Positions 5,350 through 57,606 of a DNA stretch of 64,000 bases are shown here, in pieces (the stretch's first letter is position 1; each line of letters begins with the position of its first letter). The position numbers and the translations under genes were made by a program. The notes under the pieces were generated by a model. That model was not told the origin of the DNA, made no database searches, and saw nothing but the letters and a program-made list of their open reading frames with translations. Source of the DNA: Prauserella halophila (GTDB lineage: Bacteria > Actinomycetota > Actinomycetes > Mycobacteriales > Pseudonocardiaceae); the NCBI RefSeq assembly GCF_024171895.1, contig NZ_JAMTCQ010000011.1, forward strand, positions 310,001 through 374,000, in the 5' to 3' direction.

Positions 5350-6582
5350 GTGGAGTCCTTCGGGAACCTGATCATCTACATCATGATGGTGTTCGTCGTG
5401 ATCGGCGCCGTGGCGTCGATCCGCGACGACGAGCACGGCCTCGGCAAGGAATTCAAGGAAGGCCTGCACTCCATCGGCGCCATCTTCATCCCCGTCGCCG
5501 GGATCATGGCCGCCATCCCGTACCTGTCGGCCCTGGTCGAGTCCGTCGCCGGGCCGCTGTTCGACGCGATCGGCGCGGATCCGGCGATCGCCGCGACGAG
5601 CCTGATCGCCGTGGACATGGGCGGCTACCAACTGGCGCAGGAAACCGCGGCCAGTACCGGTGGCTGGATCATGGCCACCGTCGTCGGCTACATGGCCGGT
5701 GCCACCATCATCTTCACCATCCCCGTCGGTCTGGCCATGTTGGACCGCAGGGACCATCGCTACATGGCGCTCGGCGTGATGTCGGGCGTCCTCGCGATCC
5801 CCATCGGTGTGCTGGTCACCACGACCATCCTCATGGCCACCTCGACGACGGTGCGCGGTGAGGTGTCCGCAGACAGCGCCTCGGACGCCGCACTGTCCGG
5901 GTTGGATGCCGGTTCGATGCTGCTCAACCTGCTTCCGCTCGCGGTGTTCGTCGTGGCGCTCGCCGCGGCGCTGTGGTTCGCGCCGAAGTTCATGATCCGC
6001 TTGTTCATCTGGTTCGGGCGCATCCTGGATGCGGCCCTGAAGCTCGTGCTCGCGGTGAGCATCATCGAGCACTTCACGGGTGTGTTCTCCGCCGTACTCG
6101 GCAGCTGGGGCTTCGACCCGATCATCGCCGACTCCCAGGACCAGTACCGGGCGCTCGAGGTGGCGGGCAACATCGGCATCATGCTCGCCGGGGCCTTCCC
6201 CATGGTCTACATGCTGCGCAAGGGACTCGCCCGGCCGCTGGGAGCACTCGGCCGCCGTGTCGGGATGAGTTCGGCGGGCACGGCGGGCCTGTTGGCCGCG
6301 GTGGCCAACGTGCTGGCCCTGTTCCGCCTGATCCGCGACATGCCCCCGAAGGACAGGGTGCTGTGCATCGCGTTCGCCGTCTGCAGTGCCTTCCTCGTGG
6401 GCGATCACCTGGCGTTCACCGCGAACTTCCAGCCGAACCTCATCGGGCCGTTGCTCATCGGCAAGCTCGTGGGCGGTCTGCTCGCCATCGCACTGGCGGT
6501 CGTCATCACGAAACCGGCCGTGCAAGCACTCGCCGCCGAGGAGCAGGAGGCGGAAGCCGACACGACGCCGGCTGCCTCCTGA
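5350..6582 (+). CDS. eutH: EutH-like ethanolamine permease
   Basis: This is a 410-residue polytopic membrane protein with about ten to eleven hydrophobic segments. It matches the EutH family along its length: SIGAIFIPVAGIMAAIPYLS, IAVDMGGYQLAQE, GYMAGATIIFTIPVGLAML, and the C-terminal GDHLAFTANFQPNLIGPLLIGKL. EutH is thought to move ethanolamine across the membrane. The GTG start at 5350 is preceded by GGAAGGAGGAGG. No ethanolamine ammonia-lyase or microcompartment gene is visible nearby; the partners are a flavin oxidase and a Cache/GntR pair. The true substrate may therefore be a different amino alcohol or polyol (inference). Confidence 0.85.
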   Translation: MESFGNLIIYIMMVFVVIGAVASIRDDEHGLGKEFKEGLHSIGAIFIPVAGIMAAIPYLSALVESVAGPLFDAIGADPAIAATSLIAVDMGGYQLAQETAASTGGWIMATVVGYMAGATIIFTIPVGLAMLDRRDHRYMALGVMSGVLAIPIGVLVTTTILMATSTTVRGEVSADSASDAALSGLDAGSMLLNLLPLAVFVVALAAALWFAPKFMIRLFIWFGRILDAALKLVLAVSIIEHFTGVFSAVLGSWGFDPIIADSQDQYRALEVAGNIGIMLAGAFPMVYMLRKGLARPLGALGRRVGMSSAGTAGLLAAVANVLALFRLIRDMPPKDRVLCIAFAVCSAFLVGDHLAFTANFQPNLIGPLLIGKLVGGLLAIALAVVITKPAVQALAAEEQEAEADTTPAAS

Positions 6583-6622
6583 ACCGTCGGTACACGGAAA
6601 GGCGGCCGGCACCCCCGGTGAG

Positions 6623-6668
6623 CCGTCGTGGCAACGCCCGGAACCGACTCCGGGCGTTGCCACGACGG
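6623..6668. terminator. Bidirectional hairpin terminator
   Basis: A perfect 20-bp inverted repeat (6623-6642 with 6649-6668) around a 6-base loop lies between the convergent eutH and megasynthase genes. There is no T-tract, as is common for actinobacterial terminators. Confidence 0.75.
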
Positions 6669-6707
6669 TGACGCGGCACGGCCGGCGCTCGGAGGGCGCC
6701 GGCGCGG

Positions 6708-9700
6708 CTACGGGTGCCGGGCGTCGCCGCGTTCACACAGTCGTGCCACGAACCACACGAACGGACCGGTGTGCCCGTTCAGTGCGCACGCACCGCTGAT
6801 CACACTGTCGAGCAAGCCCTCGGCATCGTTCGCGACCAGTGCCGCGATCGCGGCATCGTCGGTCAACCGCAGCGAGCAGTACGCCTCACCCGGCGGGGTC
6901 CGGCTCGCCACGGTTGCGGTGCCGTCGCGGAACGCGACCACCACGGCGTCGTCGCCTCCCGGAACGTCGATCGACACAGCCAGCTGCGGGATCGGCCCCG
7001 GCACGGCGGTCAGGGTCTTGTTCACGTATCCGCAGAATTCGTCGGCCCACACCTGCACGTCGTCGATGCCGTGATCGCGCACGGCCGGGACACCCGCACC
7101 GGCAGCCGGAATGCGCGGCCCGCCCGCACCGGTTCTCCGCACCTCATCCGCCTCCTCGTGAGCGGCGACGAGCGCGGACACGGTGACGTCGACGTCCTCC
7201 CGCGTGTGGGAAGCCGAGCAGATGAACCGCAGGCGACCCTGACCACGCTCCACGATGGGATAGGTGACGGCCGAGGTGTGGACACCGCGCGCGCTCAACC
7301 CCCGAGCCGTCAGGTAGAGCACCTCCTCGTCCCGGATCCGGGGTGTGATGATGGGGCCGTCGCCGGGGCCGGGGTCGTACCCGGCCGCTGTGAACCGGGT
7401 CCTCATATATGCCGTGGTGTCCCAGAGCTGTTCCCGGAGACTGTCGTCGCTACCGAGCCGCCGCAACGCCGCCAGCGCCCCGGCGATGTCCGCCGGCGTC
7501 GACGACGCCTGGAAGATGTACGCGTTCGCCGACGACTTCAGCAGGTCGATAGCCTCCTCCCCTGCCGCGACGACGCCGCCGAGACTCCCCATTGCCTTAC
7601 TGAGCGTCGCCATCACGAAATCGACCTGCTGCGAACACCCGGCGGCGGCACACATGCCGGCGCCCTGCGGACCGTAGATGCCGAACGAATGCGATTCGTC
7701 GACCAGGACGAGCGCTCCGTACGCCCGTGCGGTGTCGACGACCTCGCGGATGCGCGCGGTGCCCTCACCCATGCTGTAGGCACCTTCGACCACCACGAGA
7801 GTCGTCCGGTACGGCGACACCTCGCTCCGCAGTACGTCCGCCAGGTCGGTTTCGTCGTTGTGCCGAAAGGTGCGCATCGTGGCTCCCGACAGCCGGGCGC
7901 CGTCGACGATCGAGGCGTGACAGAGCTGGTCCATCACGACCGCATCGTGTGCGCCGAGAACACCGGCGATCACGCCCAGGTTCGCGGTGAAGCCCGTCGG
8001 AAAGAGGCATGCCGCAGACATGCCGACGGCGTCGGCGAACGTCTTCTCGAACTCGAAATGCAGGTCGATGGTTCCGGATGCCGTCGCCGACGTTCCCATT
8101 CCGGACCCGAAGCATTCCAGCGCGGATCGCGACGCGTCGAGTACGGTTTCGTCCCGGTTGAGGCCCAGGTACAGGTTCGTGGTCCACACGACGGACTCAC
8201 GCTCCTCGCCGGTGTGCACATCCGCCACCGTTCCGGCGGTCGCGCTGCCGCTGCGCACGAATCTGCTGTGCGGATCGTGACCGCGGCGGGCCAGCATCGC
8301 CTTCAACGCGCCGACCACGCGCGCCTTGTCCCGGGACGACCAGGCGAACGCCTTCGCGGCCGGGAACGGTGCATACCCCGACCGGATCCGTTCCTGGAAC
8401 CGCTGAAGGTCGTCGCCGCCGCGTGCCGGTGGGCACCGGTCCGCCTGCGTGTCGTTCTCGGTCGCGCCCACCGCGGCGAGGACGCGGGAGGCCAGGGCCG
8501 TCGCGGTCGCGTCCTCGGCGAGGTCCGCCGCGTCCATCCGCCGGCCCACGGCCGTCTCGATCCGCCGTCCCAGTTCGACGACCGACAGCGAGTCCACCCC
8601 GAGCGTGTCCAGGGCCACGTCCGGCGGCACGTCGCCGGGACCGGAGAGGCCGAGCATCAGCGCCACCTCCCGGCGGACGAGGGACACGGTCCGGGAATGC
8701 TCGGCCCCCGAGGCCGGAGTCGAGGCGGGAGCCGGGGCAGGAGTCAGGGCGGGAAGCGAGACGGACTCCGGCGCGTGCCGATCCGCCGGTTCCGCCGCCG
8801 GGACGTCCGGGCGCGGCAGGCTCGAGCGGTCGAGCTTTCCGTTGGGAAGGACCGGGATGTCGTCCACCACCGTGACCACCCCCGGGACCAGGTGGCGGGG
8901 CAGCAGTTCCCCGAGGTGCCGCCGCGCATCCCGGCCGGCGACCGAGCCGCCGCGGCACGTGACGTAGGCGGCGAGGTACTGCGCTCCGCCCGGCCCGTCG
9001 CACACCGTGGCCGCTGCCCGGTCGACGGCCTCCATCGACTCCAGCGCGGACTCGATCTCGCCGAGTTCTATCCGGAACCCACGAACCTTCACCTGGTCGT
9101 CGACCCGGCCCAGGAACTCGATTCTTCCCCGTTCGTCGAACCGGCACAGATCACCGGTCCGGTACAATCTGCTTTCCGGAATGGGATGGTGACTGCCGAA
9201 TTCGACGAACCGTTCCGTCGTCTGTTTCCGATCGCCCAGGTATCCACGTGCGAGCTGCCCTCCCGCCAGGTACAGCTCCCCCGCCACACCGTTCCGTACG
9301 ACGTTTCCGCCGGTGTCGAGAATGTAGGCGCGCGTGGTGTGCACCGGTTCGCCGATCGTGACCGGCTCGGCGGCCGATACGATGTCGGCGGCCGTCGCGA
9401 AGACGGTCGCTTCGGTGGGCCCGTACACGTTGATCACACGGGGTGGCCGGTCCCGGCTCGTGAGATCCTCGACGAGCGACCGCTTCAACGCCTCACCTCC
9501 CAGGACCACGCACGTGATCGCCGACGGGAGGCCGTCGCCTGCGAGCAATGCCTGCATGGCCGACGGAACCGTGATCACCGTGCGGGCGCGGGTTCGTTCC
9601 GGAAGCCGGCGCACCGCCAGCGCATCGGCGACCAGGACGACCGTGCCACCGAGGGACAGGGTGCCGAGAATCTCCATCACCGAGGGGTCGAAACAGACGG

Positions 9701-10334
9701 ACGTCGCGGCGATCACCCCGGACCGTTCCGTCTCGTCGAGCAGCACGCCCATAGACCGGCTCATCGCCACGACGCTCCGGTGCTCGACCGCCACGCCCTT
9801 CGGCCTGCCCGTGGTGCCCGACGTGTAGATCACGTACGCCAGGTCCTCCGCTGCCGGTGCCGTCACCCCGGCACGCGGCGTCCGCGTCACGCTGCCGAGC
9901 CACACCAGCTCGGCGGTGCCGGCACAGAGCGCTGCTCCGTCGCGATCGTCGACCACCACTGCAGCCGCCCCGGAATGGTCGAGGATGTCACGCATCCGGG
10001 CCTCCGGGTAGGTGGGATCGAGCGGAACATAGGCACATCCGGCACGCAGCACGCCGAGGAGCGTCGCCACCAGCTCCCACGTCCGCGCCACACACACCCC
10101 GACCAGCGAACCGTGCGCCACGCCCCGTGCCAGCAGCTCCTGGGCAACGGTGTCGGCCCTGGCCGACAGTGACGCGTAATCGATCTCGACGTCACCGTCG
10201 ACGACTGCCGTCCGGCCGGGATGGTCCCGCACCCACCGATCGATCAGGGAACACACGGTTTCGTTCTCGTATTCGTCATCGGATTCGGAAATACTGCGGT
10301 CGCGGTGATGATCGTTTCGGCGGGTCGATTCCAC
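6708..10334 (-). CDS. Single-module NRPS-like megasynthase: adenylation - carrier - alpha-oxoamine synthase - SCP2-like
   Basis: This is a 1208-residue multidomain enzyme. Residues about 30-510 are an amino-acid-type adenylation domain (YVIYTSGTTGRPKGVA, YGPTEATVFA, YRTGDLCRF, VKVRGFRIELGEIE, NGKLDRSSL with the catalytic lysine near 500). Residues 545-625 are a carrier protein with phosphopantetheine serine near 582 (GVDSLSVVEL). Residues 670-1050 are a PLP-dependent alpha-oxoamine synthase of the BioF/KBL/ALAS fold (VDESHSFGIYG; PLP lysine near 913 in ATLSKAMGSLGG). Residues 1090-1200 resemble an SCP2 sterol-carrier domain. There is no condensation or thioesterase domain. The logic is to activate an acid on the carrier, then condense it with a decarboxylating amino acid to release an alpha-amino ketone. 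The GTG at 10334 follows GAGGAGCG; a GTG at 10382 is possible. The product is unknown. Confidence 0.85.
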   Translation of the reverse strand: MESTRRNDHHRDRSISESDDEYENETVCSLIDRWVRDHPGRTAVVDGDVEIDYASLSARADTVAQELLARGVAHGSLVGVCVARTWELVATLLGVLRAGCAYVPLDPTYPEARMRDILDHSGAAAVVVDDRDGAALCAGTAELVWLGSVTRTPRAGVTAPAAEDLAYVIYTSGTTGRPKGVAVEHRSVVAMSRSMGVLLDETERSGVIAATSVCFDPSVMEILGTLSLGGTVVLVADALAVRRLPERTRARTVITVPSAMQALLAGDGLPSAITCVVLGGEALKRSLVEDLTSRDRPPRVINVYGPTEATVFATAADIVSAAEPVTIGEPVHTTRAYILDTGGNVVRNGVAGELYLAGGQLARGYLGDRKQTTERFVEFGSHHPIPESRLYRTGDLCRFDERGRIEFLGRVDDQVKVRGFRIELGEIESALESMEAVDRAAATVCDGPGGAQYLAAYVTCRGGSVAGRDARRHLGELLPRHLVPGVVTVVDDIPVLPNGKLDRSSLPRPDVPAAEPADRHAPESVSLPALTPAPAPASTPASGAEHSRTVSLVRREVALMLGLSGPGDVPPDVALDTLGVDSLSVVELGRRIETAVGRRMDAADLAEDATATALASRVLAAVGATENDTQADRCPPARGGDDLQRFQERIRSGYAPFPAAKAFAWSSRDKARVVGALKAMLARRGHDPHSRFVRSGSATAGTVADVHTGEERESVVWTTNLYLGLNRDETVLDASRSALECFGSGMGTSATASGTIDLHFEFEKTFADAVGMSAACLFPTGFTANLGVIAGVLGAHDAVVMDQLCHASIVDGARLSGATMRTFRHNDETDLADVLRSEVSPYRTTLVVVEGAYSMGEGTARIREVVDTARAYGALVLVDESHSFGIYGPQGAGMCAAAGCSQQVDFVMATLSKAMGSLGGVVAAGEEAIDLLKSSANAYIFQASSTPADIAGALAALRRLGSDDSLREQLWDTTAYMRTRFTAAGYDPGPGDGPIITPRIRDEEVLYLTARGLSARGVHTSAVTYPIVERGQGRLRFICSASHTREDVDVTVSALVAAHEEADEVRRTGAGGPRIPAAGAGVPAVRDHGIDDVQVWADEFCGYVNKTLTAVPGPIPQLAVSIDVPGGDDAVVVAFRDGTATVASRTPPGEAYCSLRLTDDAAIAALVANDAEGLLDSVISGACALNGHTGPFVWFVARLCERGDARHP

Positions 10335-10510
10335 TTCGGTCGCTCCTCGTCTCGGTACCCGATCGAATGACCGGCATGCCACCTCGACCTAGCACACGGT
10401 TAACCCCGCCACCACCGACCGATCGTCATCTTTCCGCGATCGATAAGCTCGGCCCGGCGTCGAGTTGTGAATCCGAGCCGGGGTTCGAATACGAAGCGTC
10501 ACAACGGCGA

Positions 10511-10543
10511 CAACGGCACAGCGGCGGCAACGGCACAGCGGCG
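10511..10543. repeat. Two-copy 17-bp tandem repeat upstream of the megasynthase
   Basis: The 16-base word CAACGGCACAGCGGCG occurs at 10511-10526 and again at 10528-10543, with related flanking words. It lies in the 269-base gap between bioQ and the megasynthase start, which must hold the megasynthase promoter unless the two are co-transcribed. No clear operator palindrome was found there. Confidence 0.5.
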
Positions 10544-10603
10544 ACAGCAGGTCGCGAACGCCGACAGCGGTGTCGCGGACCGATGCCGGTCAGAGTCGCG
10601 GAA

Positions 10604-11191
10604 TCACTCGCCGGTGCCGCACCGTCCGTACTGCCCGCGCGGAGCCAAGCGTGACCGCACCCCGTCCAGCAGCAGCTCGATCCCTCGCTCGAAGTCGGCC
10701 GAGTTATCCGGAGTCCGATCGATCGCCCCGGCACTGGCGGCCTGCATGGCGGTCTGCTCCTCCACCGTGTGACCGAACACGAGGTGCAGGAAGGCGCGGG
10801 TGCCGCTGTCGACGAGATCTTCGGCGAGGCCGCCGTCCCGCAATGCCGCGCGCAGCTCGTCGGCGGGTTCGGCGGCGCCGAGGCTGAACGTGTAGGCGGT
10901 CACGACCACCTCGGCACCGTCGCGGTAGGCCAGCATCGCGTCGCGGAGCTCGGTGCAGCTCTCGACCACACGCCGGTCCCAGCTCTCGGCCGCCCGGACG
11001 CGCCTGGCACGGGCGAGGATCTCGTCGGCGACCGCGGCCAGCAGCGCCTGCTTGTTCGGCACGTGATGGTAGAGGGCGCTCGGCTGCACGCCGAGCTCAG
11101 CGGCCAGGCGCCGCATCGTCAACGACTCCAAGCCGTACTCGTCGAGCACGTCGAGTGCGCGAGCCACGACGTCACCCCGGTGATAACGCAA
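10604..11191 (-). CDS. bioQ: TetR-family biotin repressor BioQ
   Basis: The 195-residue protein has a TetR helix-turn-helix at residues 22-55 (LTMRRLAAELGVQPSALYHHVPNK) and a TetR_C-type ligand domain. It starts at TTG 11191, supported by GGAAAGGA six bases upstream. It is divergent from bioB, and the gap between them contains two copies of a 13-bp palindrome of the BioQ type. BioQ is the known repressor of biotin genes in mycobacteria, corynebacteria and streptomycetes, so the position and site together support the name. It probably represses itself and bioBAFD, with the corepressor unknown here. Confidence 0.85.
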   Translation of the reverse strand: MRYHRGDVVARALDVLDEYGLESLTMRRLAAELGVQPSALYHHVPNKQALLAAVADEILARARRVRAAESWDRRVVESCTELRDAMLAYRDGAEVVVTAYTFSLGAAEPADELRAALRDGGLAEDLVDSGTRAFLHLVFGHTVEEQTAMQAASAGAIDRTPDNSADFERGIELLLDGVRSRLAPRGQYGRCGTGE

Positions 11192-11235
11192 GCGAGGTCC
11201 TTTCCGTTGACCGCCCGGCCACGACCAGTCTAACC

Positions 11236-11263
11236 TGAACGCTGTTCAACTGAACGCTGTTCA
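11236..11263. promoter_or_regulatory. Double BioQ operator
   Basis: Two identical 13-bp palindromes TGAACGCTGTTCA lie at 11236-11248 and 11251-11263, two bases apart (15-bp periodicity). They sit within a larger inverted repeat covering 11230-11269. The form TGAAC-N3-GTTCA is the known BioQ type of site. The pair lies between bioQ and bioB and could control both. Confidence 0.85.
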
Positions 11264-11313
11264 GGTTAGCCACCCGACAGGTCAGTCACCCGACAGTCGA
11301 TACCGGAGACGCG

Positions 11314-12387
11314 ATGAGCAACACCTTCCAGCAGCTTGCCGACGCGATCCTTGCCGGCACCCCGGCCACCCCCGACGATGTACTCGCCGTGTTGCGTGCC
11401 GATGACGCCGAGCTGATGCAGATCGTCGCTGCCGCAGGCAGGCTACGCCGCGCCGGTTTCGGCAACACGGTGAAGGTGAACTACCTCGTGAACCTGAAAT
11501 CCGGGATGTGCCCCGAGAACTGCAACTACTGTTCGCAGGCGCTGGGTTCCGACGCGCAGATCCTGAAGTACTCGTGGCTGTCCAAGGACAACACCATCGC
11601 CCAGGCGAGCGCGGGGTTGCGTGGTGGCGCGAGCCGGGTCTGCCTGGTCGCCTCGGGACGAGGACCCTCCACCCGGGACGTGGACAAGGTCACCGACATG
11701 GTCGAGTCGCTGAAGGCGGAGTATCCGGACGTCGAGGTGTGCGCGTGCCTCGGGCTGCTCGGCGACGGCCAGGCCGAGAAACTCAAGGCCGCCGGAGTCG
11801 ACGCCTACAACCACAACATCAACACCGCCGAGAGCAACCACGCCAACATCGTCCAGACCCACACCTACGACGACCGGATCGACACCGTCGAGAAGGCCAA
11901 GAACGCGGGGATCTCCCCGTGCTCGGGACTGATCGCGGGGCTCGGTGAATCCGACGAGCAGCTGGCCGAGGCACTGTTCGCCCTCCGCGAGCTGGACTCG
12001 GACTCGATCCCGGTGAACTTCCTGATGCCCTTCGAGGGCACGCCCCACGAGAACACCTGGGAACTCACCCCCACTCGCTGCGTGAAGATCCTCGCGGCCG
12101 CCCGCTTCATCTGCCCCGACAAGGAGGTCCGCATCGCAGGCGGGCGGGAGATGCATCTGCGGTCGCTGCAGCCGATCGCACTGCACGTCGCCAACTCGCT
12201 GTTCCTCGGTGACTACCTCACCTCCGAGGGCCAGGACGCCCGGGCGGATCTGGACATGATCCGCGACAACGGTTTCGTCGTCCTGGGCTCCGAGCAGGAC
12301 CCGTCCCAGCGGGCCGGCGAGCAGGAACCGGCCGATCCGGCGATCCGCCGCCGGGGCGCGGGCACCGACGTCCTCCCCAACGCGTGA
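11314..12387 (+). CDS. bioB: Biotin synthase
   Basis: A 357-residue radical-SAM enzyme that inserts sulfur into dethiobiotin. The cluster motif C-x3-C-x2-C is present as [10 protein letters not shown] near residue 68-77, and the family signatures [15 protein letters not shown] and [11 protein letters not shown] are intact. A C-terminal extension of about 20 residues is charged and probably disordered. The ATG at 11314 has GGAG five bases upstream. It is the first gene of a tightly packed bioB-bioA-bioF-bioD operon and follows the double BioQ operator. Confidence 0.96.
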
Positions 12388-13649
12388 TGCCCCCGGCCGA
12401 AGAGCTGCTCGCGTTCGATCGCGAGCACCTGTGGCACCCGTACACGTCGATGACCAGTCCGGCGCCCGTGCAGCTGGCCACGGGCGCATCGGGCAGCCGG
12501 ATCACCCTCGACGGCATCGGCGAGGTGGTGGACGGGATGGCGTCCTGGTGGTCGGCCATTCACGGATACCGGCACCCCGCGCTCGACGAGGCCGCGCGCC
12601 GCCAGCTCGACCGGATGTCACACGTGATGTTCGGAGGTCTCACCCACGAACCCGCGGTCGAGCTCGCCCGTCGTCTCGTGGACCTCGCACCCGGCGACCT
12701 CGACCGGGTGTTCCTCGCCGACTCCGGATCGGTGAGCATCGAGGTGGCGATGAAAACGGCGCTGCAGTACCAGCGCGGCAGGGGCAGGACGCAGCGCTGC
12801 CGGTTCCTGACCGTCCGAGGTGGATACCACGGCGACACCTTCGACTGCATGAGCGTGTGCGACCCGGAAGGCGGCATGCACTCGATGTGGTCGGGACTCC
12901 TGCCGCGGCAGGTGTTCGGCGAACAGCCTCCCCCGCTCGGCGGCGACGTCGATGCCTGGGCCGACGGCTTCCGCGCGCTGGCGGCGCAGCACCGCCACGA
13001 ACTCGCCGGCCTGATCGTGGAGCCACTGCTGCAGGGCGCCGGAGGTATGCACCCCTACCCCGCCGAGTGCCTGCCGGTCTTTCGCGAGGTGGCCGACGAA
13101 CACGGGCTGGTGCTGATCTTCGACGAGATCGCCACCGGGTTCGGCCGCACCGGAACGTTCTTCGCCGCCGACGCGGCCGGTGTGGCCCCGGACGTGATGT
13201 GCGTCGGGAAGGCACTCACCGGCGGTTACCTGTCGCTGGCGGCCACGTTGTGCACGGCCGACATCGCCCGCGGCCTCTCCGCGAGCGATTCCGGCGTGCT
13301 CATGCACGGCCCCACGTTCATGGGCAATCCACTGGCCTGTGCGATCGCCACTGCGAGTCTGGACCTGCTGGCCGAACGCGACTGGGCCAGCGACGTGGGG
13401 CGGATCAACGCCGGGTTGCAGGCCCTGCACGGGATCGGCGGTGCCGGCGTGCGTGTCCTCGGCGCGGTCGGCGTGGTCCAGCTCGACCGCGACGTGGACG
13501 TGTCCGCCGCGGCCGAAGCGGCACTCGCCCAGGGTGTGTGGCTGCGTCCGTTCCGCGACCTCATCTACACGATGCCGCCCTACGTGTGCACCGACGACGA
13601 CATCGCGACCATCTGCTCCGGAATCGCGGCGGCGGTGGAGGCGGCATGA
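12387..13649 (+). CDS. bioA: Adenosylmethionine-8-amino-7-oxononanoate aminotransferase
   Basis: This fold-type I PLP aminotransferase of 420 residues converts KAPA to DAPA, with S-adenosylmethionine as the usual amino donor. The start region has LWHPYTSM, the PLP aspartate is in [14 protein letters not shown], and the Schiff-base lysine is in [16 protein letters not shown]. The ATG at 12387 overlaps the bioB stop (TGATG); a GTG three bases earlier is an alternative. It overlaps bioF by four bases, so translation is coupled along the operon. Confidence 0.95.
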
Positions 13650-14779
13650 ACGCATGGGCGACGTGGCTCGCCGAGCAGCGCGCGGCCCGCGAGGCCGCGG
13701 GATTGCAACGCACCCTGCGGCCGCGGCAGGCAGACGAGGACATCATCGATCTCGCCAGCAACGACTACCTGGGCCTGAGCACGCACCCCGACGTGTGCAG
13801 GGCCACCGCCGACGCCGCCCTCACGTGGGGTGCCGGCGCGGGCGCCTCCCGCCTCGTCACCGGCACGACCACGTTGCACGCCGACCTGGAACGGGAGCTC
13901 GCCGAGTTCACGGGCCACGAAGCGGCGCTGGTCTGCTCGACCGGCTACCAGGCCAACCTGTCCGCGGTGACAGTACTGGCGGACCGGCATTCGCTGATCG
14001 TCTCGGACGAGCACGTTCACGCGTCGCTGATCGACGCGGCGCGGCTCTCGAAGGCCGCGGTCACGGTCGTCCCGCACAACGACGTCGGCGCGGTCCGCGA
14101 GGCGCTGGCGGACGCCGGGGACCGGCGCGCCGTGGTGCTGACCGAGTCGGTCTTCTCGGTCCTCGGCGACACCTCCCCGCTGCCCGAGCTCGTCGACGCG
14201 TGCACGGCGGCGAACGCACTGCTCGTGGTCGACGAGGCGCACGGGCTCGGCGTGGCCGGTGAGGACGGGCGCGGAGCGGTGCACGCCCGCGGTCTCGCGG
14301 GCCACCCGCACGTGGTCGTGACCGCGACGCTGTCGAAATCCCTCGGCGCGCTGGGCGGTGCCGTCCTCGGCTCCGCAGCCCTGGTCGACCAGCTCGTGAA
14401 CCGCGCCCGCCCCTTCATCTTCGACACCGGCCTCGCCCCCGCACCGACGGCCGGGGCGCTGGCGGCCCTGCGGTTACTGCGGGACCGGCAGGTCGGCCCG
14501 GCACGGATCCACCGGCGCGGCGCCGAACTCGCCGAACGGCTCGACGTCCCGCGGTCGGCGGGTGCGGTGCTGTCCGTACCGATGCCGTCCCCGCGGGCCG
14601 CACTGACCGCGCAAGCCGAGGCCCTGGCCGCCGGAGTCCGCGTCGGCTGCTTCCGTCCGCCGTCGGTACCGGACGGAGTCTCCCGCCTGCGGATCACCAC
14701 CCACATCGGACTCGACGACGAGCGCTGGGACCACGCGCTCGCCGTCCTGACCGCGGCCGTCGACCGGTGCCGAACGTGA
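13646..14779 (+). CDS. bioF: 8-amino-7-oxononanoate synthase
   Basis: A 377-residue PLP enzyme of the alpha-oxoamine synthase family that condenses a pimeloyl thioester with alanine. Visible landmarks are [14 protein letters not shown] at the start, [23 protein letters not shown] with the PLP aspartate and histidine, and the lysine in [13 protein letters not shown]. The ATG overlaps the bioA stop as ATGA. It is a close fold relative of the synthase domain in the megasynthase at 6708-10334, but that domain's conserved segments differ (SHSFGIYG, SKAMGSLGG). Confidence 0.95.
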
Positions 14780-15498
14780 TCACCATCGTCACCGGGACCG
14801 ACACCGGCGTCGGCAAGACCGTGGCCACCGCAGCGCTGGCGGTGCGCTGCGGCCCCGGAACGCTCGTCGTCAAGCCCGCGCAGACCGGAGCAGGCACCGA
14901 CGAACCCGACTGCTCCGTGGTGCGGCGCCTCGCGGCCCGTGAGGTCACCGAGTTCGTGCGGCTCGACGATCCCCTCGCTCCCGGCACGGCCGCCCGGCTG
15001 CACGGCCTCGACCTCCCCGCGGTCCAGGCGCACGCCGCCCGGATCCGCGAGCTCGCCCGCCGCCACCGCCGCGTGATCGTCGAGGGCAGCGGCGGACTCC
15101 TCGTCCGCCTCGACACCGGCGGCGGCACGTTGACGGACCTCGCGGCCGATCTCGTCCGGGATCACGACGTCGAGGTGCTCGTCGTGACCCGCATTGCCCT
15201 GGGCACGCTGAACCACACCGAGCTCACCGTCGACGCGCTCCGTGCCCGCGGCATCGAACCGGCGGGGCTCGTGCTCGGCGCCGTTCCGGAACAGTCCGGC
15301 CTCGCCGCGCAGTGCAACCGCACCGAACTGCCCCGCATCACCGGAGTACCGGTCGTCGCCGCACTTCCGGAGGGCGCCGGCGCTCTCGATCCGGAACAGT
15401 TCCGGGCACGGGCAGTCTCCTGGTTCGCCGCCTGGTTCGCCGCCTCCCCCGATGGCCGGCGGAATGCCGGACCGCGACACGCGGCCGACGACCGCTGA
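14767..15498 (+). CDS. bioD: Dethiobiotin synthetase
   Basis: A 243-residue ATPase that closes the ureido ring of dethiobiotin from DAPA, carbon dioxide and ATP. The P-loop GTDTGVGKT starts at about residue 10, VVKPAQTG supplies the substrate lysine, and VEGSGGLLVRL is the second conserved region. The GTG at 14767 lies inside the end of bioF, giving a 13-base overlap; no better start is available without losing the P-loop. It is the last gene of the operon. Confidence 0.95.
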   Translation: MPNVITIVTGTDTGVGKTVATAALAVRCGPGTLVVKPAQTGAGTDEPDCSVVRRLAAREVTEFVRLDDPLAPGTAARLHGLDLPAVQAHAARIRELARRHRRVIVEGSGGLLVRLDTGGGTLTDLAADLVRDHDVEVLVVTRIALGTLNHTELTVDALRARGIEPAGLVLGAVPEQSGLAAQCNRTELPRITGVPVVAALPEGAGALDPEQFRARAVSWFAAWFAASPDGRRNAGPRHAADDR

Positions 15499-15516
15499 CC
15501 ACCGGCTCGCCGCGCG

Positions 15517-15630
15517 CTATTCCCCTCGGTTCTCGGGACTGCGCCGGACCAGGTTGACGATCGCGAGCGCGAGACCGCCCCAGATCACCAGGATGGCGAG
15601 CAGCATCATCAACACCGCCGAGATGCCCAT
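15517..15630 (-). CDS. metS: MetS-like small subunit of an NSS importer
   Basis: The predicted protein has only 37 residues: one hydrophobic helix (VLMMLLAILVIWGGLALAIV) and a short charged tail. Small proteins of this kind accompany the NSS transporter MetP in Corynebacterium and are needed for methionine and alanine uptake there. Its ATG shares a base with the metP stop (TGATG), which is strong evidence that it is a real, coupled gene. Confidence 0.85.
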   Translation of the reverse strand: MGISAVLMMLLAILVIWGGLALAIVNLVRRSPENRGE

Positions 15631-17177
15631 CAGCGCACCTCCTCCTCGGTCAGTTCCATCTTCGTCCGGCTCTTCCACGGTGCCAGCGACGCCAGTGCGG
15701 CCAGGACGACCACACCGACGACGACTCCCCACCCGAAGGTCGCCAGCATCCAGGCCGGGTAGTCCTCGTACGGCGCGGAGATGTCGGTGACGAGCTGCCG
15801 GATCAGCACGTACAGCAGCGCCAGCGGCGCCACCACCCCGACCAGCACCCGCCACGCTCGGCCCAACGTGATCGAGCCGTGGTGGTTGAGGTGCCTGGCC
15901 AGCTCCGGCAACAGGCGGACACCCCATGCGAGGACCAGCATGCTGACCACGGCGACCGCGAGGATGCCGAACCGGTTGATGAAGTGGTCCACGATGTCGA
16001 GCACGTACAACCCGCTGGTCGTGGCGAACAGCACCAGACTGATCAGCGCGGTCGGGATCGCCACGGCGAGCGTGGCGGTGATGCGGGAGAGCTCGAACTT
16101 GTCCCGCACGCCGGAAATCACGACCTCGATCACGCTGATCAGGGACGTGAGCCCGGCGATCACCAGCGAGCCGAAGAACAGGACGCCGAGCACCGCCCCC
16201 GCCGGGGCCTCGCTGATGATGGCCGGGAACGCGACGAAGGCCAGGCCGATGCCGTCCGAGGCGACCTCGCCCACCGCCACACCGGAGGCCTGGGCCATGA
16301 ACCCCAGTGCGGCGAACACCCCGATACCGGCGAGCAGTTCGAAGCCGGAGTTGGAGAAGCCGACGACCATCGCCGACCCGGTCATGTCGGTCTTGCGCTT
16401 CACGTAGGACGCGTAGGTGATCATGATGCCGAATCCGATCGACAACGAGAAGAAGATCTGCCCGAAGGCGGCCGCCCAGACGCCGGGTTCGAGCAGAGCC
16501 GCCCAGTCCGGGGTGAACAGTGCGTTCAGCCCGCCGCCGGCACCCGGCAGCAACAACGCCTGCACCACCAGGGCGAGGAACGCGATCACCAGGATCGGGA
16601 TGAAGACCATCGCGACGGCGCCGATGCCGCGCTGCACGCCCAGCGCCATGATCACGATCAACGCGCCCCACACCACGAGCAGCGGCACCAGCACACCGGG
16701 CGTGAACTCCATGGCCACGCCCGGATCACCTGCGTGCAGGAAGTCCTCGAAGAAGAACGTTTCCGGATCGTCACCCCAGGCCTTGTTCACCGAGAAGAAC
16801 GTGTACCGCACGGCCCAGGCGAGCACGGCCGCGTAGTAGACGGCGATGAAGAAGCAGATCAGAACCTGCCACCAGCCCAGCGCCTCGGAGCGCTTGCGAG
16901 CGCGGGCGAACGACAGCGGCGCCGACCCACGGAACCGGTGCCCCAGTCCGTAGTCGAGCAGCAGGAACGGGATTCCCGCGGTCAGCAGCGCGACGAGGTA
17001 CGGCAGGATGAACGCTCCGCCGCCGTTCTCGTAGGCGACGTAGGGGAACCGCCAGATGTTGCCGAGCCCCACCGCGGACCCGATGGCGGCGAGGATGAAC
17101 ACGCGTCGGCTGGTGAACCCGCCGCGCCGGGTCTCCTCGACCTGTACTCCCGGCTCCGAGCCGGCCTTGTCGGTCAT
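15630..17177 (-). CDS. metP: Sodium-dependent NSS-family amino-acid importer MetP
   Basis: A 515-residue polytopic protein of the neurotransmitter:sodium symporter family. The first helix has the family signature AAIGSAVGLGNIWRFPYVAY, which contributes sodium and substrate contacts, and GGGAFILPYL follows. About twelve membrane segments are visible. The ATG at 17177 was chosen for its GGAGG box; the longer reading to 17216 has none. Pairing with the 37-residue MetS-like protein supports a methionine/alanine importer, though the substrate is inferred from the family. Confidence 0.88.
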   Translation of the reverse strand: MTDKAGSEPGVQVEETRRGGFTSRRVFILAAIGSAVGLGNIWRFPYVAYENGGGAFILPYLVALLTAGIPFLLLDYGLGHRFRGSAPLSFARARKRSEALGWWQVLICFFIAVYYAAVLAWAVRYTFFSVNKAWGDDPETFFFEDFLHAGDPGVAMEFTPGVLVPLLVVWGALIVIMALGVQRGIGAVAMVFIPILVIAFLALVVQALLLPGAGGGLNALFTPDWAALLEPGVWAAAFGQIFFSLSIGFGIMITYASYVKRKTDMTGSAMVVGFSNSGFELLAGIGVFAALGFMAQASGVAVGEVASDGIGLAFVAFPAIISEAPAGAVLGVLFFGSLVIAGLTSLISVIEVVISGVRDKFELSRITATLAVAIPTALISLVLFATTSGLYVLDIVDHFINRFGILAVAVVSMLVLAWGVRLLPELARHLNHHGSITLGRAWRVLVGVVAPLALLYVLIRQLVTDISAPYEDYPAWMLATFGWGVVVGVVVLAALASLAPWKSRTKMELTEEEVR

Positions 17178-17408
17178 CGGTCCTCCTCGGTGTCGACTCC
17201 GGCGCACGGTCCACACATATCGGCAGAGTCTATTCCGTGTGACTCACGGGAACAAAACGGCCACTACCCGACCGGGTTTCTCCCGTGTCGGCCGAATCTG
17301 TCAGCCGAACTCGGCCCGGACCCCGGTGAGGGCGGGCTCCCGGCTCGAGTGCACGTCGAACGCGCCGTCCGGCCGGCGACGGCCGGGCGGTCGGGCGGTC
17401 GGATCGCC
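17178..17408. other. Intergenic stretch without a gene
   Basis: This holds the metP promoter side and the end of the downstream SDR gene region. No gene or clear regulatory element was recognised. Confidence 0.3.
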
Positions 17409-57089: not shown

Positions 57090-57175
57090 TGGTGTCCGAG
57101 GGGGGACTTGAACCCCCACGCCCTTGCGGGCACTAGCACCTCAAGCTAGCGCGTCTGCCATTCCGCCACTCGGAC
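57090..57175 (-). tRNA. tRNA-Leu(GAG), CCA encoded
   Basis: The minus strand folds as a class II tRNA: acceptor 5' GTCCGAG pairs with CTCGGAC, the anticodon loop TTGAGGT gives GAG, a long variable arm follows (TGCCCGCAAGGGCG), and the T arm has GGTTCAAGTCC. The 3' end continues with discriminator A and CCA. It reads CUC and CUU. Confidence 0.95.
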
Positions 57176-57176
57176 C

Positions 57177-57522
57177 TGCTGCAGGAAAGGTTACCGGACG
57201 CCGCACGACGCACACACAGGGGGACGACCTCCCGCAGACACCGAATGGCACAGCAGCAGAGCGGCGCAACAGCCGAACAGCAGCACTCGGCGCGCAGCCG
57301 CCCGATCCGGACAACCACGCGCCGACACACGACACGGATCGGATCGGATCGGGAACCGTATTCGCCGAGCGAACCACCTCGCCACGGGAAACCCGTGGAA
57401 CAAATGGTTCTTCCCGGAACACGTCCCCGGAACAGGGGGACGACAGAACAGGGGGACGACAGAAAAACGGGCCGAACCCGCAGGTCCGACCCGTTCTCGA
57501 TCTCCCGGAGAAGATCGGATTG
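57177..57522. repeat. Inter-tRNA spacer with 16-bp duplication
   Basis: The spacer has no convincing gene. ACAGGGGGACGACAGA occurs twice in tandem at 57432-57463, and GGATC is repeated three times near 57336. These may be traces of the event that duplicated the tRNA gene. Confidence 0.45.
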
Positions 57523-57606
57523 TGTCCGAGGGGGGACTTGAACCCCCACGCCCGTTACGGGCACTAGCACCTCAAGCTAGCGCGTCTGCCATTCCGCCAC
57601 TCGGAC
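57523..57606 (-). tRNA. tRNA-Leu(GAG), CCA not encoded
   Basis: A nearly identical second copy 347 bases away on the same strand. Acceptor, anticodon loop and T arm are the same; the variable arm is one base longer (TGCCCGTAACGGGCG), and the 3' end after discriminator A reads CA rather than CCA. Candidate -10 elements (TACTCT; TAACCT in the other copy) precede both. Confidence 0.93.

Follow-up and report, generated by a model that had tools for sequence, protein, structure and literature searches.

An adenylation–carrier–alpha-oxoamine synthase megasynthase of Prauserella halophila as a candidate one-gene pathway to a diamino ketone

SPT, KBL, ALAS and BioF, the familiar alpha-oxoamine synthases (AOSs), are stand-alone enzymes that use coenzyme A (CoA) or acyl carrier protein (ACP) thioesters. 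A thermophilic AOS has been described as accepting various amino acids and acyl-CoAs to make amino ketones (PMC10230504). Proteins that join an adenylation (A) domain, a carrier protein (CP) and an AOS in one chain have been tabulated, with no product, from Microscilla marina (A1ZVW4) and Blastopirellula marina (A3ZWL3) (Milano et al. 2013, PMC3870968, Table 2), and pyrazines arising from one-module non-ribosomal peptide synthetases (NRPSs) with reductase release are discussed for Lentzea (PMC8658869). Here we analyse a megasynthase gene of the A-CP-AOS layout, extended by a C-terminal domain (CTD), in a 64,000-nucleotide stretch of Prauserella halophila DNA (the window; assembly GCF_024171895.1, contig NZ_JAMTCQ010000011.1, positions 310,001 to 374,000, forward strand). 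We propose, with a probability of about 0.55, that the gene encodes a biosynthetic enzyme that works by itself, was acquired horizontally and probably constitutes a one-gene pathway, in which the A domain would load an amino acid and the AOS domain would condense it with a second one and release a diamino ketone.

The megasynthase gene and its domains

The megasynthase gene is real. Its reading frame is open on the minus strand from 6708 to 10382 (1224 codons), and the GAGGAG just 5′ of the GTG codon supports a start that gives a protein of 1208 aa. Residue numbers throughout count from 10382, the 5′ limit of the open frame, and not from the GTG. On the plus strand the equivalent frame is interrupted by a stop. 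That strand also carries a long open frame of 1152 aa at the site, as is common at 70% G+C, but the Pfam matches and the homologues all fit the minus-strand product. A preliminary description of this DNA had placed a 1208-residue chain here without giving the strand, and both the frame and the start codon agree with it (Table 1).

Pfam matches were obtained for AMP-binding at residues 48-382 (E 8.6e-75), AMP-binding_C at 442-516 (E 1.1e-5), PP-binding at 569-633 (E 1.7e-7; 31.8 bits versus a cut-off of 20.8) and Aminotran_1_2 at 731-1071 (E 7.3e-37), the last overlapped by a Beta_elim_lyase match. These matches confirm the order A, peptidyl carrier (PCP), AOS that had been proposed for the chain. 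Condensation, reductase and thioesterase families, likewise said to be missing, are not among the five Pfam families found at E<=0.001.

Residues were compared in 28 sequences, namely the window protein and its 27 full-length homologues. Lys516 (A10), Ser598, His822, Asp895, Lys929 and Arg1052 are invariant in all of them. Ser598 is the predicted phosphopantetheine site, and one ACPS-family (PF01648) match is present in the genome. dN/dS ratios were calculated by NG86 in six close pairs only, and the short domains give noisy values: 0.08-0.33 for the A domain, 0.10-0.47 for the PCP, 0.02-0.17 for the AOS domain and 0.23-0.42 for the CTD. All four parts seem to be under purifying selection, which appears strongest in the AOS domain, with the CTD and the carrier evolving faster.

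Distribution, neighbouring genes and insertion site

A scan of 84,980 species genomes, which required an exact short peptide match and thus gives a lower bound, yielded at least 63 loci. The 27 full-length loci (L009-L034 and L039) were used and 36 loci with partial matches were set aside. The full-length homologues are 44-58% identical to the window protein and occur sporadically in three phyla, Actinomycetota, Pseudomonadota and Bacteroidota, their hosts being Fulvivirga, Sinomicrobium, Chitinophaga, Nocardioides, Streptomyces, Pseudoalteromonas, Microbulbifer, a Lysobacter metagenome-assembled genome (MAG) and Janthinobacterium. Each of 17 host genomes examined has a single match at E<=1e-110. 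The gene is rare, because only 23 of 108 Pseudoalteromonas genomes match, one of them with a 467-aa frame only, and because samples of 394 genomes from the phylum of Fulvivirga imtechensis and 368 genomes from the class of Pseudoalteromonas rubra, with two candidates scored per genome, contained no match besides the centre genome (G114 and G108, respectively). Plasmid records gave no match at E<=1e-100. Judged from these sequences, the megasynthase belongs to a rare, scattered and apparently intact enzyme family.

In a tree of the family the window protein falls within a 12-row set (support 100/100) together with nine other Actinomycetota, the Lysobacter MAG and Janthinobacterium. Its highest identity within this set is to the Lysobacter MAG (57%); its branch is long (1.01) and its exact position is unsure. 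The nine other Actinomycetota form one group and six Bacteroidota another, while Pseudomonadota requires two changes on the tree. The most divergent homologue, from Pseudoalteromonas sp. T1lg23B (L027; 44% identity, end branch 1.63), lies apart from the other Pseudoalteromonas sequences and is possibly a separate subfamily.

None of 99 relatives, six of them of the same genus, has a megasynthase match at E<=1e-150. On one side of the megasynthase the window carries genes for GDH, a cache-like sensor protein, a GntR regulator, an ALO-type oxidase and EutH; on the other side lie genes for a TetR regulator, bioB, an Aminotran_3 gene at the bioA position, bioF (identified from an AOS-type match and tblastn), a bioD-like gene and an SNF symporter. 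The spot from 5350 to 17216 is variable within the genus, being EutH-SNF in G003 and G004, EutH-bioBAFD-SNF in G005 and G006 and EutH-megasynthase-TetR-bioBAFD-SNF in the window. In G005 and G006, both of the same genus, bioB comes next after EutH, the matched blocks lying 104 and 131 bp apart, so that the 4.6 kb with the megasynthase and the TetR gene is absent there. In G003 and G004 EutH adjoins the SNF gene, and the bio operon is absent from that place. A gain of the megasynthase in this genome would be a simpler reading than its loss elsewhere.

Neighbours were compared at the 27 loci and in the window, using crude gene calling, ten genus groups, E<=1e-5 and 50% coverage. No neighbour protein family occurred in three or more of the ten genus groups, and six families were common to two groups, with distances that did not agree (0.5 to 12 kb). 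By this comparison there is no family-wide partner gene, and some genera may have a local accessory gene. The preliminary description had noted that no tailoring genes adjoin the megasynthase and that one gene might suffice; the comparison makes this plausible, and in the window the downstream neighbour, EutH, is convergent with the megasynthase.

The alternative that survives best is that the megasynthase is part of a longer pathway, with other genes elsewhere in the genome or specific to each genus and with the amino ketone as an intermediate for tailoring enzymes or transporters. We regard this as unlikely; the genus-specific downstream genes that favour it also tell against a one-gene pathway. 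The neighbourhood test is limited by the crude gene calling and by contig ends; L009 has no called upstream gene, and L018, L028 and L029 have no called downstream gene. The genome has other NRPS-like genes (G000:C1:1206862-1228637 and G000:C7:22596-28721, open frames of 3082, 5130 and 3570 aa). In some genera a gene peculiar to the genus lies close downstream. In five of nine Pseudoalteromonas loci a gene of 163-170 aa, in no Pfam family, follows the homologue in the same direction by 45-66 bp; in L022, where it has 170 aa, it still lies 45 bp behind the homologue although other shared neighbours are farther away, and it is possibly a local accessory protein. Two of three Sinomicrobium loci have a lipoprotein-like gene of 144 aa 87-270 bp downstream in the same direction, its two copies being EthD-like just below the cut-off (E 0.0008 and 0.026), and both Nocardioides loci have a membrane-protein-like gene 97-98 bp downstream, again in the same direction. 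The longer pathway is disfavoured by the lack of any family in three genus groups and by the convergent EutH gene in the window. Furthermore, the downstream genes of Pseudoalteromonas, Sinomicrobium and Nocardioides are mutually unrelated.

Other neighbours were also recorded. An LVIVD-repeat gene lies ahead of the homologue in both Nocardioides. Among the 40 widest clusters of a comparison of all open reading frames, Pseudoalteromonas loci had recurrent neighbours and three Streptomyces loci shared one. Ten neighbours at seven loci were scanned for protein families; besides genes already named they included a transposase, an eCIS-core protein, RibD_C, a TonB receptor, an FAD hydroxylase and an AraC regulator, and three had no family. 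The eCIS core domain is in the protein encoded at L011:13679-16816, beside the Chitinophaga japonensis homologue.

A TetR protein 73% identical to that in the window adjoins bioB in the same-genus genome G003, and DNA matches run across both genes in G001 and G004 as well. Because of the TetR-bioB pair in G003 the TetR gene probably goes with the biotin genes; it is more likely to regulate the divergent bio operon than the megasynthase, and a role as a dedicated megasynthase partner is disfavoured. The bio operon carries the only bioB match of the genome (E<=1e-60) and looks ordinary. A role for it in the megasynthase pathway was rejected, since this is the sole bioB, G005 and G006 have the same operon without the megasynthase, and G003 and G004 have EutH-SNF with neither. 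ARAGORN reported a tRNA-Ala at 13631-13724 on the minus strand, overlapping both the last part of the bioA frame and the beginning of the bioF region; this call is probably false. It also called two tRNA-Leu (gag) at 57090-57606, about 350 bp apart.

Expected chemistry and the C-terminal domain

The A domain scored 379.1 bits with the NCBIfam amino-acid adenylation model TIGR01733 (cut-off 317.4). Motif anchoring, on what we take to be the GrsA position numbers, reproduced the unusual pocket code DPMTVGVVFK of the preliminary description. The pocket is conserved in all 28 sequences, whose 28 codes (11 distinct) show little variation: DPM, T/M/V/A/G, V/I/F, G, V/A/L, V, F/Y, K. Asp is found at the motif-anchored position 235 in every sequence, and Asp235 is the usual mark of alpha-amino-acid substrates. 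The rest of the family pocket is presumably hydrophobic, with what we take to be a partial likeness to Ile/Leu-type codes. Because the code is conserved, the whole family probably uses one hydrophobic alpha-amino acid. Six of the 11 distinct codes were looked up in open-licence PMC papers and gave no match.

It had been suggested that the enzyme activates an acid and releases an alpha-amino ketone. Release as a ketone is plausible, but the generic acid probably gives way to an amino acid: since Asp235 is kept, a 1,3-diamino-2-ketone is expected to be released in place of a simple alpha-amino ketone. It is improbable that the A domain instead loads a fatty or aryl acid without an alpha-amino group, giving a simple alpha-amino ketone or a sphingoid-like base as product. 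The nearest solved relatives of the AOS domain do include serine palmitoyltransferases, and a polyketide synthase/AOS pair is described as making sphingolipids in Pseudomonas MYb115 (PMC12134224). The invariant Asp235 and the TIGR01733 score both argue against such a substrate.

The pyridoxal phosphate (PLP) domain was compared with NCBIfam models and with solved structures. Among the best 25 of 110 families it scored 303 bits with KBL (cut-off 460), 296.7 with SPT (500), 295.8 with BioF (426.45) and 235 with ALAS (338.55), and it is below the cut-off of each AOS-class equivalog among them. The nearest PDB structures are SPT (3a2b and 8guh), KBL-type (8s1y and 7poa), a further SPT (2jg2) and ALAS (7x98). 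Alignment with SPT and KBL is nearly end to end, and the Lys, His, Asp and Arg of AOSs are retained. All 28 family members have SMGEG where 3a2b has SMEGD, 2jg2 has SMLGD and 8s1y has SMDGD. The KBL, SPT and BioF models are about equally near, and all are below their cut-offs, so that the scores do not single out a second amino acid and another PLP reaction is possible, which counts against the condensation proposed here. That the domain carries out a transamination, racemisation, decarboxylation or aldol reaction on the carrier-bound or a free amino acid instead is nevertheless very improbable, the low model scores and the invariant SMGEG pointing to it and the near end-to-end alignment with retained AOS residues pointing away from it.

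Under the one-gene pathway that we prefer, the A domain would adenylate one hydrophobic alpha-amino acid and load it onto Ser598 of the carrier. The PLP domain would then decarboxylate a second, free amino acid while it is acylated by the carrier-bound aminoacyl thioester. This AOS condensation would double as product release, so that neither a thioesterase nor a reductase would be needed. The product should then be an alpha,alpha'-diamino ketone (a 1,3-diamino-2-ketone if amino acids serve as both partners), and it could form a dihydropyrazine or pyrazine by cyclising or dimerising with no other enzyme involved. The CTD, which may be a remote SCP2-like fold, would bind the product, shield it or help with the transfer.

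The preliminary description called the C-terminus SCP2-like and thought that it could hold a hydrophobic product. No Pfam match to SCP2 (PF02036) was obtained at E<=10 with the whole protein or with the tail, under HMMER filters that drop most matches above about 0.1, and SCP2 was found in none of the 28 family tails at E<=5. The strongest Pfam match among the tails was KH_SLS1_1 (two of 28, best E 0.0018); MDMPI_C matched one (E 0.063). A PDB search with the tail profile gave no match at E<=10, to SCP2 or anything else. We also aligned the CTD profile by hhalign with 30 genuine SCP2 domains taken from this genome and related ones (matches given as loci). The score was 15.4, over 40 columns by default, and none of 100 column shuffles scored as high. 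With 14 further family members the score was 18.1 (HH probability 2.9%; 63 columns by default); one of 200 shuffles was higher (21.4), nine other segments of the same protein scored at most 14.4 and the reversed profile 13.7, compared with 32.5-70.0 for seven true-SCP2 controls. An end-to-end colinear alignment appeared only at low -mact settings.

From these alignments a remote SCP2-like fold is possible. Against it stand HH probabilities of 1-3% over the hhalign runs, the one higher shuffle, the lack of colinearity when the untrimmed profile was aligned in global mode, and KH_SLS1_1 as the strongest tail match. The hhalign result is no more than suggestive and the SCP2 assignment is not established; consequently, neither is the lipid-holding role, which we consider a weak possibility. 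In the open-licence PMC literature we found no paper linking a sterol carrier with an NRPS. Cys1199 is present in all 28 family members and Cys1169 in 27, at 6786-6788 and 6876-6878, respectively, and disulfide formation, metal binding or thiol chemistry by this near-invariant pair is conceivable. The enzyme would be a test case for a conserved C-terminal domain of this kind, for which no Pfam family reached its cut-off in the search of the tails.

If one gene suffices, its expression alone in a laboratory host would reveal the effect of AOS release in an NRPS and the metabolite common to Pseudoalteromonas, Streptomyces, Nocardioides, Sinomicrobium and others. The enzyme would also serve as a compact biocatalyst that forms C-C bonds between two amino acids. 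More tentatively, the family might constitute a mobile single-gene pathway of Gram-positive and Gram-negative bacteria to an alpha,alpha'-diamino ketone, or to the dihydropyrazine into which this dimerises spontaneously, that serves as a signal or weapon. The CTD with its cysteine pair would then be a new, distantly SCP2-like product-handling domain, and the enzyme would exemplify an unstudied mode of NRPS release, with the AOS both detaching the molecule and finishing it.

Table 1. Coordinates of the megasynthase, its parts and neighbouring genes (window positions unless a locus is named)
Feature	Coordinates	Strand	Basis or remark
A-PCP-AOS-CTD megasynthase gene, 1208 aa	6708..10334	minus	GTG start 10334, GAGGAG ahead
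Adenylation domain and C-terminal subdomain, residues 48-516	8835..10241	minus	Pfam, TIGR01733; catalytic Lys516 at 8835-8837
Peptidyl carrier domain, residues 569-633	8484..8678	minus	Pfam; phosphopantetheine Ser598 (predicted) at 8589-8591
Alpha-oxoamine synthase-type PLP domain, residues 731-1071	7170..8192	minus	Pfam; Lys929 at 7596-7598
C-terminal domain, residues 1105-1218	6729..7070	minus	alignable in 28/28; weakly SCP2-like at best
TetR-family regulator	10604..11191	minus	Pfam
Downstream genes of 163-170 aa (Pseudoalteromonas)	L020:13525-14037, L022:13543-14055, L023:13486-13995, L026:13582-14073, L039:13489-14001	direction of homologue	

Relation to described systems

The closest described proteins are the A-CP-PLP2 (AOS) proteins of Milano et al. 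2013 (PMC3870968), which have the same order of A domain, carrier and AOS-type Aminotran_1_2 domain, with no product given. Their table lists no CTD, whereas the megasynthase has one; the comparison is by layout. The preliminary description had presented the gene as a candidate new small-molecule pathway. The layout itself is not new, having been tabulated in 2013 (PMC3870968), and the megasynthase is a variant of it rather than a new kind of enzyme. No tie to a known product was found: the open-licence PMC texts retrieved tie no product to the A-CP-AOS layout and do not mention the CTD. The flavipulchrins of PMC12819058 are unrelated to the megasynthase.

SPT, KBL, ALAS and BioF share the PLP fold, the catalytic residues and the expected decarboxylative condensation with the AOS domain of the megasynthase. 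In contrast to them, this domain is fused to its own A and PCP domains, and it meets no AOS equivalog cut-off among the best 25 of 110 families. SCP2 domains (PF02036) resemble the CTD in a weak profile alignment that is colinear at low -mact; they differ in that the CTD has no Pfam or PDB profile match and its untrimmed global alignment with them is not colinear. TamD of tambjamine YP1 biosynthesis also has a carrier fused to an AOS, and its condensation with serine is put forward by its authors as a hypothesis (PMC4698589). TamD is described there as a two-domain ACP-AOS protein in a 19-gene operon, whereas the megasynthase has its own A domain and no family-wide partner. Finally, the single-module NRPSs with a reductase that lead to pyrazines and pyrazinones are, like the megasynthase, one module long, with a product that may cyclise spontaneously (PMC8658869). 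Those enzymes are described as releasing an aldehyde by reduction, whereas the AOS domain of the megasynthase would release its product by C-C bond formation.

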